Of a DNA stretch of 64,000 bases, positions 3,472-9,413 are shown in pieces. A model generated the notes under the pieces. The model ran no database searches, was not told the origin of the DNA, and was given only the letters and a program-made list of their open reading frames with translations. Within the stretch, counting starts at the first letter, position 1, and the number at the start of each line of letters is the position of its first letter. The position numbers were made by a program, and so were the translations under genes. This DNA is from Lachnospiraceae bacterium 28-4 (GTDB taxonomy: Bacteria; Bacillota; Clostridia; Lachnospirales; Lachnospiraceae), in contig KE159598.1 in NCBI GenBank assembly GCA_000403275.2, positions 1,287,722 to 1,351,721 on the forward strand, read 5' to 3'.

Positions 3472-4227
3472 TTAATGGTTCAAATTATGGTCTGCATCCA
3501 TATATCCTTTCACAGTTCCAGTTTTAGAGCATCTGGCATCAACCCAACAATAATTATCTTGAATGACCAGTCCCACGCCCTGAATCTCTAAGCCATAATG
3601 AAAGTTAGCAGATGATTTTACTCGTGCATAATTAACACCGCCAACAGTGATGCTGCTTACGCTTGAATCTTTAAAATCACTTACTTGCCAAATGCTTAAG
3701 AAACCTCTTTGATAAGAACCATCGCTGTAATTAACTGATACGGATGAGCCATTATAAGTAAACTGTGCTTCCTGTGTAATTCTATATAACTCTTGCCCTA
3801 ATACCAAAGCATAAACAGCATGATAGTACTTTTTAATTGGTGATGTACTTTTGGCGGAATATGTTGAAGCTGTATTATCCACTGCACCCTTGGCTATTCT
3901 TTCAGGTGTAGCTTCTACATCTTCAACTCCATTAACATAAACCATTATACCTTCAAGAATTACCGTGTTATCATTCCCTAAATCAATCACCTTGGTTTCT
4001 TCTGAATGTATCAATTCGGATGTATCATATTGTTTTCCATATTTGGAAATAAATGTTTGTACTTTATCTGGTAATGTTGTGTTACTATATGTTGCGGATT
4101 TTAAAAAGCTTTCAAAATCCGTAGCATATTGCTCAAAAGATATGGGAGCTTTTTCCGCAGCAAAGGCCGTTGTTCCCATACTAACCAACATCACAAGCGA
4201 CAAGACTAATGACAAAAATTTTTTCAT
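3472..4227 (-). CDS. Secreted protein of unknown function
   Basis: The protein has 251 residues from the ATG at 4227, chosen because AAAGGA stands 7 bases upstream; a TTG start 18 bases earlier is less likely. It has a classical signal peptide: a KK start, a hydrophobic core LSLVLSLVMLV, and an AFA-AE cleavage site. The mature part is rich in S, T, Y and V, with two cysteines near the C-terminus (CWVDARC). I do not recognise a family. It is clearly more AT-rich than the genes around it, suggesting separate acquisition. It follows a membrane-anchored XRE regulator by 26 bases, so the two probably form one operon. Confidence 0.8.
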   Translation of the reverse strand: MKKFLSLVLSLVMLVSMGTTAFAAEKAPISFEQYATDFESFLKSATYSNTTLPDKVQTFISKYGKQYDTSELIHSEETKVIDLGNDNTVILEGIMVYVNGVEDVEATPERIAKGAVDNTASTYSAKSTSPIKKYYHAVYALVLGQELYRITQEAQFTYNGSSVSVNYSDGSYQRGFLSIWQVSDFKDSSVSSITVGGVNYARVKSSANFHYGLEIQGVGLVIQDNYCWVDARCSKTGTVKGYMDADHNLNH

Positions 4228-4253
4228 AAACATTTCCTTTCTCAATACTTTGT

Positions 4254-4625
4254 TTACTTGGCTGCACTCAATAGCATTATTAGTAATATAATAACAACTA
4301 TGGAAATTAAAACAATTTTAACACTGCTCCATATGCGCCGGTTTCTTAGTGTCTTTTCTGAAAGCTGGGAATTGATTCGTGATAGTTGTTCTGCTATTGT
4401 ATTTTTATCACTTACACTTTCTTTGCTTTCAATGGTTTCTCCCAAAAGTACGCTCACCGGGGTTTCCAGTATTTCTGATAAGCTTATCAGAAGCTGGGCA
4501 TCCGGTACAGAAAGACCTTTTTCCCATTTGGATATTGTTTGACGAACAACATTCAGCTTTGCAGCAAGTTCTTCTTGAGAGAACCCTTTTTCCTTACGCA
4601 ACTTTTTAAGATTTTCATTAAACAT
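4254..4625 (-). CDS. XRE-family regulator with C-terminal membrane anchor
   Basis: A 123-residue protein: residues 1-65 form an XRE helix-turn-helix (FSQEELAAKLNVVRQTISKW), then a short linker, then one hydrophobic helix near residues 100-120 (IVLISIVVIILLIMLL). DNA-binding proteins tethered to the membrane in this way are known in Firmicutes but their signals are mostly unknown. RBS GAGGAGG precedes ATG 4625. It likely regulates itself and the downstream secreted protein from a promoter with a perfect palindrome (see 4660-4687). AT-rich like its partner. Confidence 0.85.
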   Translation of the reverse strand: MFNENLKKLRKEKGFSQEELAAKLNVVRQTISKWEKGLSVPDAQLLISLSEILETPVSVLLGETIESKESVSDKNTIAEQLSRINSQLSEKTLRNRRIWSSVKIVLISIVVIILLIMLLSAAK

Positions 4626-4852: not shown

Positions 4853-4920
4853 AGGGCGCAATGCACCACTTCCCTAAGTGGTGTATAATTGCGCCCTATC
4901 CGAGTTCTTGGATAGGGCGC
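4853..4920. repeat. Nested palindromes next to RIT left end
   Basis: There are two adjoining inverted repeats. The first has outer arms agggcgcaat (4853-4862) and attgcgccct (4888-4897), with inner arms caccactt and aagtggtg. The second has arms gcgccctatcc (4891-4901) and ggatagggcgc (4910-4920). They share the gcgccct block with each other and with both RIT ends. They could be the palindromic target the RIT element chose, a leftover of an earlier end, or a transcription-stopping structure. The remaining bases from about 4,690 to 4,850 show no gene. Confidence 0.6.
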
Positions 4921-5001
4921 ATTATCCGAGATAATCAATTATCCGAGGAAACTCTCAAAACCGCCAGCATAAAAGGCTTTCAGAGAAGTTGCCTCGGATA
5001 A
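4914..5001. repeat. RIT left end: inverted repeat and 9-mer sites
   Basis: The 47-bp terminal repeat is 4914-4960. The 9-mer ttatccgag occurs at 4922-4930 and 4939-4947, and inverted (ctcggataa) at 4993-5001. These are likely binding sites of the recombinases. The inner site ends 8 bases before the stop codon of the third recombinase gene. Confidence 0.85.
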
Positions 5002-5009
5002 TGTAAGAA

Positions 5010-6038
5010 CTATTTCAGGAAGTCAGGGAGCTGATGCTCTTTCTTTTGTGTAATAGGATTTTCTTTTTGATGGGAAAACCACTTTTCGTTCCAATCCCGG
5101 ATATGCCTGTTTACGGTTCCCTGTGAAAGTTCAGCATACCGTTCTGTTGTGGAGATCGAGGAATGTCCGAGGAAATTTTTGATTGCCATAATTGGTACCC
5201 CGGCTTCCAACATATGTGTGGCGGTCGTATGCCTCATGGTGTGCGGGGTGTAGCGTTTTTCAAGGAACATTTCCGGATGCCCTGCTCTTGCGAGCATGAT
5301 ATATTTTTTATAAATCTCCTCAATACAGGAAATGCTCATCTGCGGATGGGTCTGGCTGGAAAAGATGTAGGCCTCCAACCGACCGGCCTTTCCCGTTTCC
5401 TCCAGATATCGTTCCAGGAGAGTTCCGCTAGGCCTTGCAATCACGATCCTCCGGGTTTTGTTTCCCTTTCCAGTAATTGTAAGCTTATAGAGGTTTTTCT
5501 CGGCCAGGAAGTCCCTGACTTTGAGATCGCAGATTTCCTGTGCCCTGGCTCCGCTGGCATACATCAGGTTCAAAAGGACCTGGTCACGGAAGCCCATCCG
5601 TTTCCCGGGTTCAGGAAGCCGGAGCAGGATTGAAACTTCATCAAGCGTAAAGGTGGTCCTCGGCTGGACGGCCTCTTTTTTTACAGGCACTCTTTTCACC
5701 GCATTTGCAAACACAGTCGCTGCTTCAAAATTCCTGTTCTGTGCGTAACCGGCAAAAGAGGCCAATGCTGAAAGCCTGAGATTCCTTGTGGATACTGAGC
5801 ATCCCCGTTCTGCTTCGATCCATTTCAGGAAGCCGTCAATAGTCTCGAAATTCAAATCCCGGAAGAGGATTTCACCAGCATTTTTCTTCTTTTCCTGATA
5901 AACATACTGGAACAAAAGGCGGAAGGTATGTTTATAGGATCTCGTGGTATTAGGGGAAAGCCCTGACGAGAGCGGCATATATTCCGTAAAAAACTGTTCC
6001 AGGAGGAGCATGAATTCAGGAAGTTTATTTTTCCTCAT
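5010..6038 (-). CDS. RIT tyrosine recombinase, third gene
   Basis: 342 residues from ATG 6038 (GGAGGT close upstream; the longer reading from 6110 has no such site). Tyrosine recombinase with a core-binding SAM-like domain (about 10-105) and a catalytic domain. Visible catalytic residues: R165 (SGARAQEIC), K near 192, H266 and R269 (HTMRHTTATH), H292 (LGHSSI), nucleophile Y301 (TERYAE). It resembles XerC/D in motif spelling. Its start overlaps the end of the middle recombinase gene by 14 bp, so translation is probably coupled. Confidence 0.9.
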   Translation of the reverse strand: MRKNKLPEFMLLLEQFFTEYMPLSSGLSPNTTRSYKHTFRLLFQYVYQEKKKNAGEILFRDLNFETIDGFLKWIEAERGCSVSTRNLRLSALASFAGYAQNRNFEAATVFANAVKRVPVKKEAVQPRTTFTLDEVSILLRLPEPGKRMGFRDQVLLNLMYASGARAQEICDLKVRDFLAEKNLYKLTITGKGNKTRRIVIARPSGTLLERYLEETGKAGRLEAYIFSSQTHPQMSISCIEEIYKKYIMLARAGHPEMFLEKRYTPHTMRHTTATHMLEAGVPIMAIKNFLGHSSISTTERYAELSQGTVNRHIRDWNEKWFSHQKENPITQKKEHQLPDFLK

Positions 6039-7014
6039 ACGCCACCTCCGTGAATACGCCAGCGGCATAATCTTCAAACAGCTCCGTATATTCAGGGAAC
6101 ATATCACCACTGAATTTCAGATATTTCTCCGTTTCGTCCATGTCATGGTGTCCAAGATAGACTGACAGGAAAGGAACAGAGTTATCTGTCGGGTGTCCGT
6201 TTTTCTCTGCCTGCGCAAATGAATGGATGGCAAAATAGTGACGGAAGCAATGAAGGCACTGCCCTCTGGAATGGGATTTTTCCTGTACATACAGGCCGGT
6301 TTCCCGCAAGAGGTTCCTAAACCGAAAATCAAAGGTTCCTTTACTGACGGAAAACTCTTGGCCCCTGGCTGCCGGGAACAGACAGCTTTCCGGTTCTGTT
6401 TTGATCCCCATAGCAATGCAGTATCTTTCCAGCATCTCTGTCAATGTCCTGTCCATTGGAACAACACGCTGTTTGTTGTTCTTGGCATGGCGGATCAGGA
6501 TGGTCCCATTGCGGAAATTTATATCTTTTACCCTGGCGGCAAGCGGTTCTCCCAGGCGGAACCCGCACCCAAGGAGCATCCGGAGCAGCATACAGAACTC
6601 CATGTCCGTCCGGCGGGTTTTCGGGTCTGTATGCCTGTTGGCCCAGCTGTCGGCGCAGGACAGAAGCGTTTGGATTTCCCTGTCCGAAAAAATATATGGG
6701 ACATAGCTGTCTGATGTTTTGGGGCAGGCGGGCATGAAAACACTGTACCCCTTGTATTGAAGGTACCGCAAAAATTTGCGGAGATAGCTTACCTTATCGC
6801 TGACCGTTTTGGGCGCGTTTATCTGCTGGAGTTCCCTGATCCAGTGATTGATGGCTGTTTCCGTAACCCTGTCGGCGTTTTCTGCCACCAGCAGTGAATC
6901 GAACGAAAGAAGGGTTCTGCGTGTACTCCGCAAAGTATCATCGCTGACAGTCCCCTGGCTGATTTCCAGATATTCTGCAAGCTCATGTTTGAAAACCGAC
7001 TGGAACTGTGTCAT
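6025..7014 (-). CDS. RIT tyrosine recombinase, second gene
   Basis: 329 residues from ATG 7014, whose ATGA overlaps the TGA of the preceding gene (4 bp); GGGAGG lies upstream. A GTG at 7026 is possible. Catalytic residues visible: R153 (GCGFRLGEPLA), H255 and R258 (HCFRHYFAIHS), H289 (YLGHHDMDE), Y298 (TEKYLKF). The HxxR motif sits in an unusual Cys-rich setting (CLHCFRH). Tyrosine recombinase family; in RIT elements all three proteins are thought to act together. Confidence 0.9.
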   Translation of the reverse strand: MTQFQSVFKHELAEYLEISQGTVSDDTLRSTRRTLLSFDSLLVAENADRVTETAINHWIRELQQINAPKTVSDKVSYLRKFLRYLQYKGYSVFMPACPKTSDSYVPYIFSDREIQTLLSCADSWANRHTDPKTRRTDMEFCMLLRMLLGCGFRLGEPLAARVKDINFRNGTILIRHAKNNKQRVVPMDRTLTEMLERYCIAMGIKTEPESCLFPAARGQEFSVSKGTFDFRFRNLLRETGLYVQEKSHSRGQCLHCFRHYFAIHSFAQAEKNGHPTDNSVPFLSVYLGHHDMDETEKYLKFSGDMFPEYTELFEDYAAGVFTEVAYEEK

Positions 7015-7982
7015 GACAGGCGCCACCTCCCCTCCAGAAAAGCAGCAAATGTACCTGTCGCCTCCATGACCGGGAGGGCGTAGTTCCGCAGCTGCTCCAC
7101 ATCCAGACTGACATAGGATTGGATGGCGTTCTGGTCTGTATGCCCAAGGGCTTTCCTTACCGCCTCATAAGGGATGTTGTCATTGACCATGGAACTTGCC
7201 AGGGACGACCGGAAAGCATGTGCGCCCTGTTTGCGTCCCGCCGGATCAATTCCAGCTGCCATAATGGCAGTCCTGACGATCTTGGTGATTGCCTGCACAG
7301 AGATATGGCTGTAAGGGGGAACGATGCGGAGAAATACATACGGGCTGTCATAGCAGGCCCGTTCTTCCTCTAAATACTGTTTCAGGGCGGCCTTTACATC
7401 CGGGACCATGGGAAGTTCAATGTCAACGCCGGTTTTGTGCTGTGTAAGCAGAATCAGGTTCCTGCCAAAATCCAGTTCCCGGAATGTCATGGATGAGATG
7501 TCCCCGCTCCTGATCCCCAGCCGTGTCGCAAGAAGCAGCACTGCGTAATCTCGCTTTCCATGTGGGGAGTCCCGGCCTACGCTATTTTCAATTTTCAGGA
7601 TTTCTTCTATTGTATAAACAGAAGGGTACGGCTGCGGCCTCTTGAAAAGAGGAACGATGCCGCTGTAATCCCTGTCGGTATGTCTGGCCTGATATGCATA
7701 TCTGAGGAATGTCCGGATGTGTGAAAGGTACCATTTGCTGCTGACCATTAAACACGCGGCTCCTACATTTTGGGCGTTCATTGCCTGCGGCGCTGCGCAG
7801 CCTGTATCAGCCAGGGCGGATAAAAAGTAGTGCCCAATCTTATCGTGAAGATGGATGCTGCTTTCCTGAAGTCCCTTGCGTTTCCCGTCTTCAAGGTACT
7901 CCGCTAAAAGAGCCTCCATTTCCGGATTCAATTCGTGGTATCCGCATGGCACTGTGTTGGTTTCCCTTGTATGGTAACCCAT
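7011..7982 (-). CDS. RIT tyrosine recombinase, first gene
   Basis: 323 residues from ATG 7982, chosen for AGGAGG 8 bases upstream. Catalytic residues: R158 (RLGIRSGDI), K183 (QHKTG), H255 and R258 (GAHAFRSSLAS), H281 (LGHTDQN), Y290 (IQSYVSL). The first gene of the trio, with its start 56 bp from the inner 9-mer of the right end, so its promoter probably lies within the end sequence and could be shut by recombinase binding. Confidence 0.9.
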   Translation of the reverse strand: MGYHTRETNTVPCGYHELNPEMEALLAEYLEDGKRKGLQESSIHLHDKIGHYFLSALADTGCAAPQAMNAQNVGAACLMVSSKWYLSHIRTFLRYAYQARHTDRDYSGIVPLFKRPQPYPSVYTIEEILKIENSVGRDSPHGKRDYAVLLLATRLGIRSGDISSMTFRELDFGRNLILLTQHKTGVDIELPMVPDVKAALKQYLEEERACYDSPYVFLRIVPPYSHISVQAITKIVRTAIMAAGIDPAGRKQGAHAFRSSLASSMVNDNIPYEAVRKALGHTDQNAIQSYVSLDVEQLRNYALPVMEATGTFAAFLEGRWRLS

Positions 7983-8037
7983 AGTTAAAACCTCCTGTTT
8001 GATAGCTTTAACTGTACTATGCCCATGTGGATAAATT

Positions 8038-8125
8038 TTATCCGAGATTTTTTGCATGAACCCCCGCATACAAAAGGTTTTTAAGAATTTCCTCGGATAA
8101 TTAAAAATCTCGGATAATGCGCCCT
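8038..8125. repeat. RIT right end: inverted repeat and 9-mer sites
   Basis: The 47-bp terminal repeat is 8079-8125, mirror of 4914-4960 with a few mismatches. The 9-mer occurs at 8109-8117 and 8092-8100 (as ctcggataa) and inverted at 8038-8046 (ttatccgag). Spacings (17 bp, then 62 bp to the far edge of the inner copy) equal those at the left end. Confidence 0.85.
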
Positions 8126-8273: not shown

Positions 8274-8792
8274 TTATCGTTCCTGCTGTCGGGGCTTCTT
8301 GTCAGGATAGAGCTTTCCGTCAACAACGGCGGCATGGCTTTTTATTTTGATTTCTCCCTCCTGCTCGCTGCGCTTTGCGTTCCTGTAGCCTTCATCGGAG
8401 AGATAAAAGCGGAACCGCTCCCCTTTAAAGCCAACAAAGCATTGTTTCTGTACTTCCACCATAATCATGTGGCGGGTTTCCGGGCGGAACCGTTCTTTTC
8501 CTGACAGGTCATGCCCCTGTAAAATCTGTTCCTGTGCTTTTGCCGCCGCAAGCCGCTGACGGATAGAATTGTTGTTTTGTTCTGTCGGGAACTGTGCTTT
8601 TACACTGGCAATAAACTGGCTGCACTCTGGTTCTGGTATTCGTTCCAGTCTTCGGATGGCGTTCTCCATGATTAACTTTGTCATTAAATCCGCTGTTACC
8701 GATACGATTTCTTTTATGCCTGCAAGAGTTTCCGCCTTGGTCGGTGCGGCATTTTGGCAAATAACATTCAGCTCATTTTTTGAAAATTTCAT
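8274..8792 (-). CDS. Conserved mobile-element protein of unknown function
   Basis: 172 residues from ATG 8792, with GGAGG upstream; its ATGA overlaps the DUF3847 gene's stop. The protein is soluble and charged, with an N-terminal helical part (about 1-70) and a C-terminal mixed part. I have seen similar proteins next to DUF3847 in clostridial mobilisable elements (possibly the DUF6103 group) but cannot confirm the family. It is the last gene of a RepA-DUF3847 operon and probably originally stood next to the relaxase before the RIT and the cassette inserted. Confidence 0.75.
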   Translation of the reverse strand: MKFSKNELNVICQNAAPTKAETLAGIKEIVSVTADLMTKLIMENAIRRLERIPEPECSQFIASVKAQFPTEQNNNSIRQRLAAAKAQEQILQGHDLSGKERFRPETRHMIMVEVQKQCFVGFKGERFRFYLSDEGYRNAKRSEQEGEIKIKSHAAVVDGKLYPDKKPRQQER

Positions 8793-9082
8793 TTCATATC
8801 CTCCTTCTGGTTTTCTGCAAGAACCTGTTCCAAAAGACATTTGGTGTCGCTCCGGTGGAACAATACTTTTAAAATGGTGCTGACCTGTTCATCCGTCACG
8901 GCTTCCGGGTGGGGGAGATGGCTTTCCAGCATTGCCCCTCTGGTGCAGAGCCGGTGCGTCCGTTCCTTCCGGTTCAGGGTCTTTATCTGGTGTTCCAGCA
9001 TTTTCTCCTTATGCTGCGCCCGCCGCAGCCTTGCTTCGGTCTTTTCAATTTCCTGATTCAGTTTTTCCAGCTTTTCATTCAT
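8789..9082 (-). CDS. DUF3847 coiled-coil protein
   Basis: 97 residues from MNEKLEKL at 9082. The first half is a coiled coil (EKLNQEIEKTEARLRRAQHK), followed by the RKERTHRLCTRGAMLE segment characteristic of DUF3847 proteins of conjugative and mobilisable elements. Function is unknown; the position between initiator and relaxase genes suggests a role in relaxosome or replication. It overlaps both neighbours (8 bp upstream, 4 bp downstream). Confidence 0.82.
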   Translation of the reverse strand: MNEKLEKLNQEIEKTEARLRRAQHKEKMLEHQIKTLNRKERTHRLCTRGAMLESHLPHPEAVTDEQVSTILKVLFHRSDTKCLLEQVLAENQKEDMK

Positions 9083-9413
9083 GGGCGGTGTCCTCCTTCG
9101 GGAGCAGGATATACATATGGCTGACCTCCCCGATTCCCTGACGGACACGCATAATCATCCCGGCCTGTTCCAGCTCGTTCAGGGAACGCTTGCAGGTCTG
9201 GGGGCTTCGGGAGAGTGCCGCCGCTATCTCCATGACGGGGAAGCGGATAAACAGAATCCCGTTGCAGTCCTCGGTTCCCCTTATCAGGATTTCATCCAGC
9301 AGGCGTGCATACATGACTTTTGCTGTATTGCTGACCGGAAGCCGGAGCATTGCCTTTGGGAGCGGCATACAGGGCGGCAGGGGCGTACTGGCTATCATAA
9401 ATTCACAATTCAT
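9075..9413 (-). CDS. Small RepA-like winged-helix initiator
   Basis: 112 residues from ATG 9413 (AAGGAGG 10 bases upstream). The segment KVMYARLLDEILIRG followed by PVMEIAAALSRSPQTCKRSLNELEQAGMI is a winged helix like those of replication initiator A proteins, but much shorter than the RepA encoded at 25,053-26,006. The frame continues upstream to 9593 only because an upstream gene has lost a base, so the longer reading is an artefact. Likely an element-encoded replication or copy-control protein. Confidence 0.75.
   Translation of the reverse strand: MNCEFMIASTPLPPCMPLPKAMLRLPVSNTAKVMYARLLDEILIRGTEDCNGILFIRFPVMEIAAALSRSPQTCKRSLNELEQAGMIMRVRQGIGEVSHMYILLPKEDTAHE

Follow-up and report, generated by a model that had tools for sequence, protein, structure and literature searches.

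A recently mobile RIT transposon with a one-sided double core, probably specialized for the nick core of MOBQ-type transfer origins

The DNA analysed here, a 64,000-nucleotide stretch of contig KE159598.1 of Lachnospiraceae bacterium 28-4 (the window), carries at positions 4914-8125 an intact recombinase-in-trio (RIT) element of 3.2 kb, whose minus strand encodes three tyrosine recombinases and whose two ends have arrays of the 9-mer TTATCCGAG. Beside these mirrored ends, at 4890-4921, lies a 32-bp near-palindrome, TGCGCCCTATCCGAGTTCTTGGATAGGGCGCA, here called P. The site that the element occupies resembles an origin of transfer (oriT) of the MOBQ type. The parts of the transposon are:

4890-4921, plus strand: P, the double core; nine exact copies in the genome, absent from empty sites. 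It consists of an outer core TGCGCC (4890-4895), an arm (4896-4904), TT, a second arm (4907-4915) and an inner core GGCGCA (4916-4921)
4922-4930, plus strand: 9-mer arm 1 of the RitC-side end (this and the following five arms are exact copies at the array spacing)
4939-4947, plus strand: 9-mer arm 2 of the RitC-side end
4993-5001, minus strand: 9-mer arm 3 (inverted) of the RitC-side end
5010-6038, minus strand: ritC, 342 aa, ATG at 6038; matches RitC of pHG1 and EbN1; dN/dS 0.07, homologue 83% identical
6025-7014, minus strand: ritB, 329 aa, ATG at 7014, ATGA overlap with ritA; matches RitB of pHG1 and EbN1; dN/dS 0.10
7011-7982, minus strand: ritA, 323 aa, ATG at 7982; matches RitA of pHG1 and EbN1; dN/dS 0.11
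8038-8046, plus strand: 9-mer arm 3 (inverted) of the RitA-side end
8092-8100, minus strand: 9-mer arm 2 of the RitA-side end
8109-8117, minus strand: 9-mer arm 1 of the RitA-side end
8118-8125, plus strand: far core TGCGCC (8118-8123) followed by CT; a direct repeat of 4890-4897, partly target-derived

The whole window holds six exact copies of TTATCCGAG, at 4922 and 4939 (plus) and 4993 (minus) and, mirrored, at 8109 and 8092 (minus) and 8038 (plus). Their start-to-start spacings, 17 and 71, are the same at either end and agree with the two direct copies, one inverted copy and 62-bp distance given in the initial annotation of this DNA. Allowing at most one mismatch per 9-mer, the three-part array occurs twice in the window and not at all in 20 mononucleotide shuffles. 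The terminal inverted repeats (4914-4960 and 8079-8125) span 47 nt with 89% complementarity. Near-identical copies, which that annotation had proposed to look for, do exist: seven full copies, the window's among them, occur in the source genome (4.28 Mb, 7 contigs), all coinciding with 4914-8125. Five, including that of the window, are identical through 3,212 bp and two have a single mismatch, at positions 5 and 3,211; in a copy interrupted by a contig end the differences are likewise confined to the outermost 8 bp. Since the differences fall there, the body of the element is invariant and its outer 8 bp are partly derived from the target.

The open reading frames (ORFs) of RitA, RitB and RitC are open, each with a PF00589 domain, and each protein finds its best match in its own namesake from two pHG1 elements and one EbN1 element (25-34% identity). 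With the seven genomic copies, these one-to-one matches bear out the reading of an intact RIT element. Equally sound was the statement that all three recombinases keep R, HxxR, H and Y: alignments with relatives have them as invariant columns, which we take to be the catalytic ones. As in RIT elements, the genes are of distinct subfamilies in the order RitA-RitB-RitC and overlap (by ATGA for ritA/ritB and by 14 bp, counted from the ATG at 6038, for ritB/ritC), and there are terminal inverted repeats and multiple identical copies. Against a homologue 78-83% identical in protein, the ratio of nonsynonymous to synonymous substitution rates (dN/dS) is 0.11 for ritA, 0.10 for ritB and 0.07 for ritC; by this measure, the rit genes are under purifying selection. 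Translation of RitA most likely starts at 7982, with the Shine-Dalgarno sequence ACAGGAGG, rather than at 8069. RitA of the window clade thus has 323 aa versus 403-414 aa in most other lineages, about 85-100 N-terminal residues fewer by alignment, a comparison that includes a few broken or ambiguous ORFs. A second short RitA (314 aa) occurs at locus L228, whose end core is GGCGCA. RitA with two core-binding domains has been described (PMC8138268; here and below, statements on cited papers refer to the portions of text available), and it would fit if the N-terminal stretch absent from the short RitA were one of the two.

P is made of two head-to-head 6-bp cores with 9-bp arms. Taken together with the outermost 9-mers it reads CTCGGATAA-TGCGCC-CTATCCGAG-TT-CTTGGATAG-GGCGCA-TTATCCGAG, that is, two head-to-head sites of the form arm 9, core 6, arm 9. 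Its central 30 bases have nine exact copies in the genome, every one of which adjoins a full RIT copy or a 303-bp mini-element; none of the nine is solitary, and the sole match in IMG/VR belongs to a third mini-element. Some copies have P at the left and others at the right, L010 has it at both ends, and copies with P on the same side stay matched out to 4890. The mobile unit is the asymmetric 3,228 bp of 4890-8117, lying between direct repeats of TGCGCCCT at 4890-4897 and 8118-8125. Hence the ends first assigned, 4914 and 8125, are exact on the side without P, but the left boundary leaves out part of P; likewise, the end arrays are mirrored as described but the unit that moves is not. As single-stranded DNA, P folds at -14.5 kcal/mol (z -7.5; three sister P, -5.4 to -7.9).

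Empty sites bring out the same unit. We joined the flanks of two insertions with a single core and searched 397 genomes of the family, the source genome included. The target of copy L013 found some match in 43 of them; in 14 the match crosses the junction without gaps (13 over all 300 columns and one over 249, at 95-98% identity), and three more diverged matches (70-79%) cross the junction with gaps elsewhere. For the window target, some match was found in 41 of the 397, with the junction crossed in eight genomes and the core intact in seven. No junction-spanning match of either target in these genomes has P at the junction, the check covering the retrieved loci and not every second place within a genome. 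An empty site holds one core TGCGCC, and after insertion there is one core on each side. Because empty sites have a single core and no P, what is inserted must be the element together with P.

On its outer side P is bordered by A, C or T, then TTATACACC and a hairpin; the other strand reads hairpin-TATAA(T/G)-TGCGCCCT. With its hairpin, TATAA(T/G) and TGCG/CCCT, this target looks like a MOBQ oriT, for which one published consensus is NWACCNNTAAGTGCGCCCTYNN (PMC3832669); a Gram-positive consensus is NcgtNtaAgtGCGCcCTta (PMC10333310). RSF1010 is nicked at TAAGTGCG/CCCT (PMC4814116), a position that maps inside the 6-bp core. Thus an inverted repeat followed by a sequence like TAAGTGCG/CCCT near mobA, the usual MOBQ arrangement, is found at the target. 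The features around the insertion are:

4861-4886, plus strand: hairpin of the oriT-like target, stems 4861-4871 and 4876-4886; single-stranded fold of 4860-4897, -8.7 kcal/mol, z -5.7
between 4893 and 4894: where an RSF1010-type nick would lie, in the outer core of P, by analogy with PMC4814116
1755-3344, minus strand: MobA/MobL relaxase gene of the host mobile element, outside the transposon on the hairpin side; PF03389, E 8.6e-90
8274-8840, minus strand: DUF5720 gene (PF18987), outside the transposon on the other side of the insertion
8789-9148, minus strand: DUF3847 gene (PF12958), likewise outside on that other side

Relaxase genes recur beside these insertions. In 21 of 24 outer flanks of the window lineage there is one on the hairpin side, 119-3,227 nt away, its product 31-100% identical to the window MobA; in two of the others the nearest relaxase gene is on the opposite side, and one has none. 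A perfect stem of at least 5 pairs stands at offset 5-6 in 18 of the 24, with differing hairpin sequences. The pattern defining these flanks missed L119 (outer core TGCGCT), where a relaxase with 35% identity lies at about 500 nt. The source genome has eight PF03389 loci (the family is present in 1 of 14 control genomes), and seven of them have an insertion within about 3.3 kb: six full copies and a mini-element. Were insertions independent, the chance of this would be about 5e-13; independence is not complete, because related host elements recur. The eighth locus is free and has, directly upstream of the relaxase gene, a hairpin followed by TGTGCGCACCCC (divergent core TGCGCA). Another place, C2:1244236, one mismatch from the target, was considered as the free oriT of this relaxase and rejected, having no evident hairpin. 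All eight exact occurrences of AGGGCGCANTTATACA in the genome adjoin P. Searching the target with 0-2 mismatches gave 20 matches versus 13 in a backwards control, so that inexact matches are near chance level.

Two observations concern the neighboring genes. Between the relaxase gene and the hairpin, window 3472-4625 encodes a regulator of the helix-turn-helix type and a protein of 257 aa whose start is signal-like, possibly cargo of the host element; at some other sites this gap measures merely 119-250 nt. At L217 (10252-11134) the adjoining relaxase match is in three pieces, and the gene may be broken.

Copies at one target differ in direction. The window copy and L111 have common flanks and opposite gene orientation, and L211 has the window's flanks and orientation with the P spacer reversed; both kinds of difference would follow if recombination could take place at one or the other of two inverted cores. 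The far and outer cores are unequal in L114, L230, L236, L237, L242 and L244, one of which belongs to the window lineage, and are in this respect unlike a target-site duplication. A gene-free mini-element of 303 bp has both end arrays and P. Its copies L017 (G000:C1:111837-112139) and L105 (G279:C54) are 301/303 identical, in two genomes and at two different oriT-like sites; the third, L276, is on the IMG/VR contig. Mini-elements have probably moved in trans.

Double cores are not peculiar to this lineage. A scan of genome contigs with a RitB alignment gave 66 loci, and a pattern search found a double core beside RITs of several lineages (the figures that follow cover RIT loci with a pattern match). 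Where the core is not GGCGCA (21 rows), the inner core equals the outer one, as an inverted copy, in 13 rows and differs from it in eight. The array is complete (+0, +17, -71 to -73) in 27 of 30 listed ends, which include near-identical ones; the other three, from the Dorea 5-2 lineage, have the inverted copy at -70 and a +0 arm with fewer than 7/9 matches. Relatives thus carry the 9-mer array, including RIT lineages 34-50% identical in RitB, which supports the earlier view of the array as meaningful and conserved; such symmetric arrays may assemble a defined synaptic complex. In L259 and L261 the outer core equals the far core but not the inner one, which looks like the trace of a previous site; L230 and L244 have three unequal cores.

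Of 21 rows whose flanks were listed, 12 have a flank reading T-D-M/L-R..., the motif of IS66 TnpB. Six flank peptides were scanned: four match PF05717, one PF03050 (IS66 transposase) and one has no Pfam match. A sister RIT clade sits in IS66 tnpB at G-Y-T-D-M/L-R codons (L230, L231, L236, L239, L242, L253, L255, L257, L259, L261, L265 and L269), its core sequence changing with the codons; L237 and L238 interrupt an IS66 transposase gene at an S/A-H-x-x-R-x-F motif. In a RitB tree of 42 rows, 11 oriT-lineage and 10 IS66-tnpB rows each fall on one side of a branch (100/100), 21 being in neither target group; some oriT rows (including L209, L213, L216, L218, L221 and L225) are labelled by kinship, with no P-side flank visible. 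Target class, as far as can be read from these flanks, follows the RitB tree.

Taken together, these data point to a recently mobile RIT transposon of a lineage specialized for the nick core of MOBQ-type oriTs, a reading to which we give a probability of about 0.78. Comparison of loci shows an inserted unit, a single-core empty site, both orientations and diverse sites in relaxase regions; one could envision the rest as follows. The three recombinases would bind the 9-mer arrays, and exchange of the far core with P's outer core would release, conservatively, an excised circle whose junction would have the composite sequence given above for P and the outermost 9-mers, with two 9-6-9 core sites placed back to back. 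One or the other of these cores could then recombine with the TGCGCC of an oriT, giving either orientation with P always on the hairpin side, where it would restore hairpin-TATAAT-TGCGCCCT. Since P starts with TGCGCCCT, an insertion leaves both hairpin and nick sequence complete, and the oriT may still function. The likely benefit is a ride on the conjugation of the host element, whose oriT is left usable.

Several points weigh against this account. Circle, excision and transposition are predictions, the hairpins are taken as working oriTs on the basis of sequence, and the +0 arm was partly selected by the P search pattern. Copy L114 lies at AGGGGGCA with neither hairpin nor relaxase in a 19-kb stretch, implying a target specificity that is less than absolute; the relaxase of L113 stands on the opposite side of the element, and L109 has P on both sides, one P flank being without a hairpin. 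Some contigs break off within the repeated element, and the rearranged flanks of L109, L224, L225 and L227 could be partly made by assembly. Close copies L209, L213, L214, L216, L218, L220, L221 and L223 are at contig edges with no P-side flank visible. As to the rearranged copies, L224 has P on both sides, with hairpin flanks, and joins two relaxase regions; L225 and L227 lack P, and one and the same non-hairpin flank stands, inverted, on both of their sides. Reciprocal exchange between two oriTs, homologous recombination or assembly would each be expected to yield such arrangements.

In most copies P stands on one side only, beyond the mirrored ends, and might therefore belong to the host oriT or be a palindromic target that was there beforehand, the element being 4914-8125 alone. 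We give this hardly any credence: the empty-site alignments lack P at both targets, all nine genomic copies of P stand beside RIT ends, the same P occurs at diverse relaxase loci, and a P of their own accompanies sister RITs at other targets. The 8-bp direct repeats of TGCGCCCT flanking the unit would suit cut-and-paste transposition with a target duplication, the palindrome being a structural ornament. This is highly improbable given the unequal flanking cores of the six copies named above, a sequence-specific target and enzymes of the tyrosine recombinase type. It is just as hard to credit that the host relaxase itself, without Rit proteins, nicks and joins nick-mimicking element ends at oriT. 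The core does span the nick and both element ends read TAATGCGCCCT outward, but the nick-like end sequences have no preceding hairpin, sister RITs at IS66 genes have this double-core layout and array with core sequences unrelated to those here, and purifying selection acts on the rit genes.

The recurrence of the window target type in the window, L109, L111 and several other genomes might reflect the spread of a few host elements already holding the transposon, with no repeated targeting. This appears very unlikely in view of adjoining relaxases as little as 31% (and up to 100%) identical to that of the window, differing flanks, opposite orientations at one target and the mini-element at two different oriT-like sites. 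A doubtful but less easily dismissed idea is that RIT recombination acts on a folded single strand, much as for integron cassettes, coupled to nicked or single-stranded conjugation intermediates. The hairpin stem of P would rebuild one double-stranded 9-6-9 core, and the target core would span the relaxase nick; the folding of P as single-stranded DNA leaves room for this mechanism.

If specialized transposons do insert at the conjugation nick and restore its sequence, they would travel with other mobile elements while still letting these move. The ends are now defined exactly, the core is 6 bp long, the arm array is conserved, a junction is predicted for the circle, and targets fall into two classes along the RitB tree; together these make the need for three recombinases directly testable and give a concrete account of movement for a little-understood transposon class. 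Tyrosine recombinases also mobilize Tn554 and Tn916-type transposons, which have different gene sets; the variable cores carried by our element resemble the coupling sequences of Tn916, and we know of no head-to-head double core in either type. RIT elements of C. metallidurans CH34, pHG1 of C. necator and A. aromaticum EbN1 likewise have three overlapping A-B-C recombinases, terminal inverted repeats and several copies per genome; the window element differs from them in its protein sequences (25-34% identity), arms, target and short RitA.

Their gene overlaps are 4-8 bp in PMC3414803, versus 14 bp for ritB/ritC here. In the available text of PMC3414803 and PMC10214605, RIT target, ends and movement are not established, and the latter lists target specificity, empty site and movement as not tested. 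A RIT target at oriT is absent from the titles and abstract beginnings of the literature matches listed, although Ricker 2013 and Nielsen 2017 may hold an earlier description. The integrative and mobilizable elements of streptococci known as IME_oriTs also integrate into the oriT of a conjugative element (PMC7563843); they target MobT-type oriTs and encode their own relaxase, whereas only the three recombinase genes, and no relaxase gene, lie between the ends of our element. GInts and SEs (PMC5385486, PMC10214605) also have several tyrosine recombinases and flanking imperfect repeats, with circular forms reported; unlike the window element they are larger islands with four conserved genes, and the available text describes no double-core P. 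RIT ends have been described as a 28-9 bp inverted repeat with an overlapping palindrome (PMC3414803), in line with which the pHG1 copies have, by eye, a one-sided palindrome.

Beyond these groups, the plasmid collection held no close copy and the phage collection one 5% match only; a viral scan with a single RitB gave nothing and one with the RitB alignment a single 30% relative. A third RIT lineage occupies five loci in the genome of Dorea sp. 5-2 (L246-L249 and L252), with cores CATGGT or CTTGGT where seen; no target was recognized in the flanks inspected (L247, L248, L252). At L229 (1206-2040) a RIT about 50% identical, with core TGCCCT, lies beside a long hairpin and, by eye, a DUF5720-like ORF, perhaps another type of mobilization origin.

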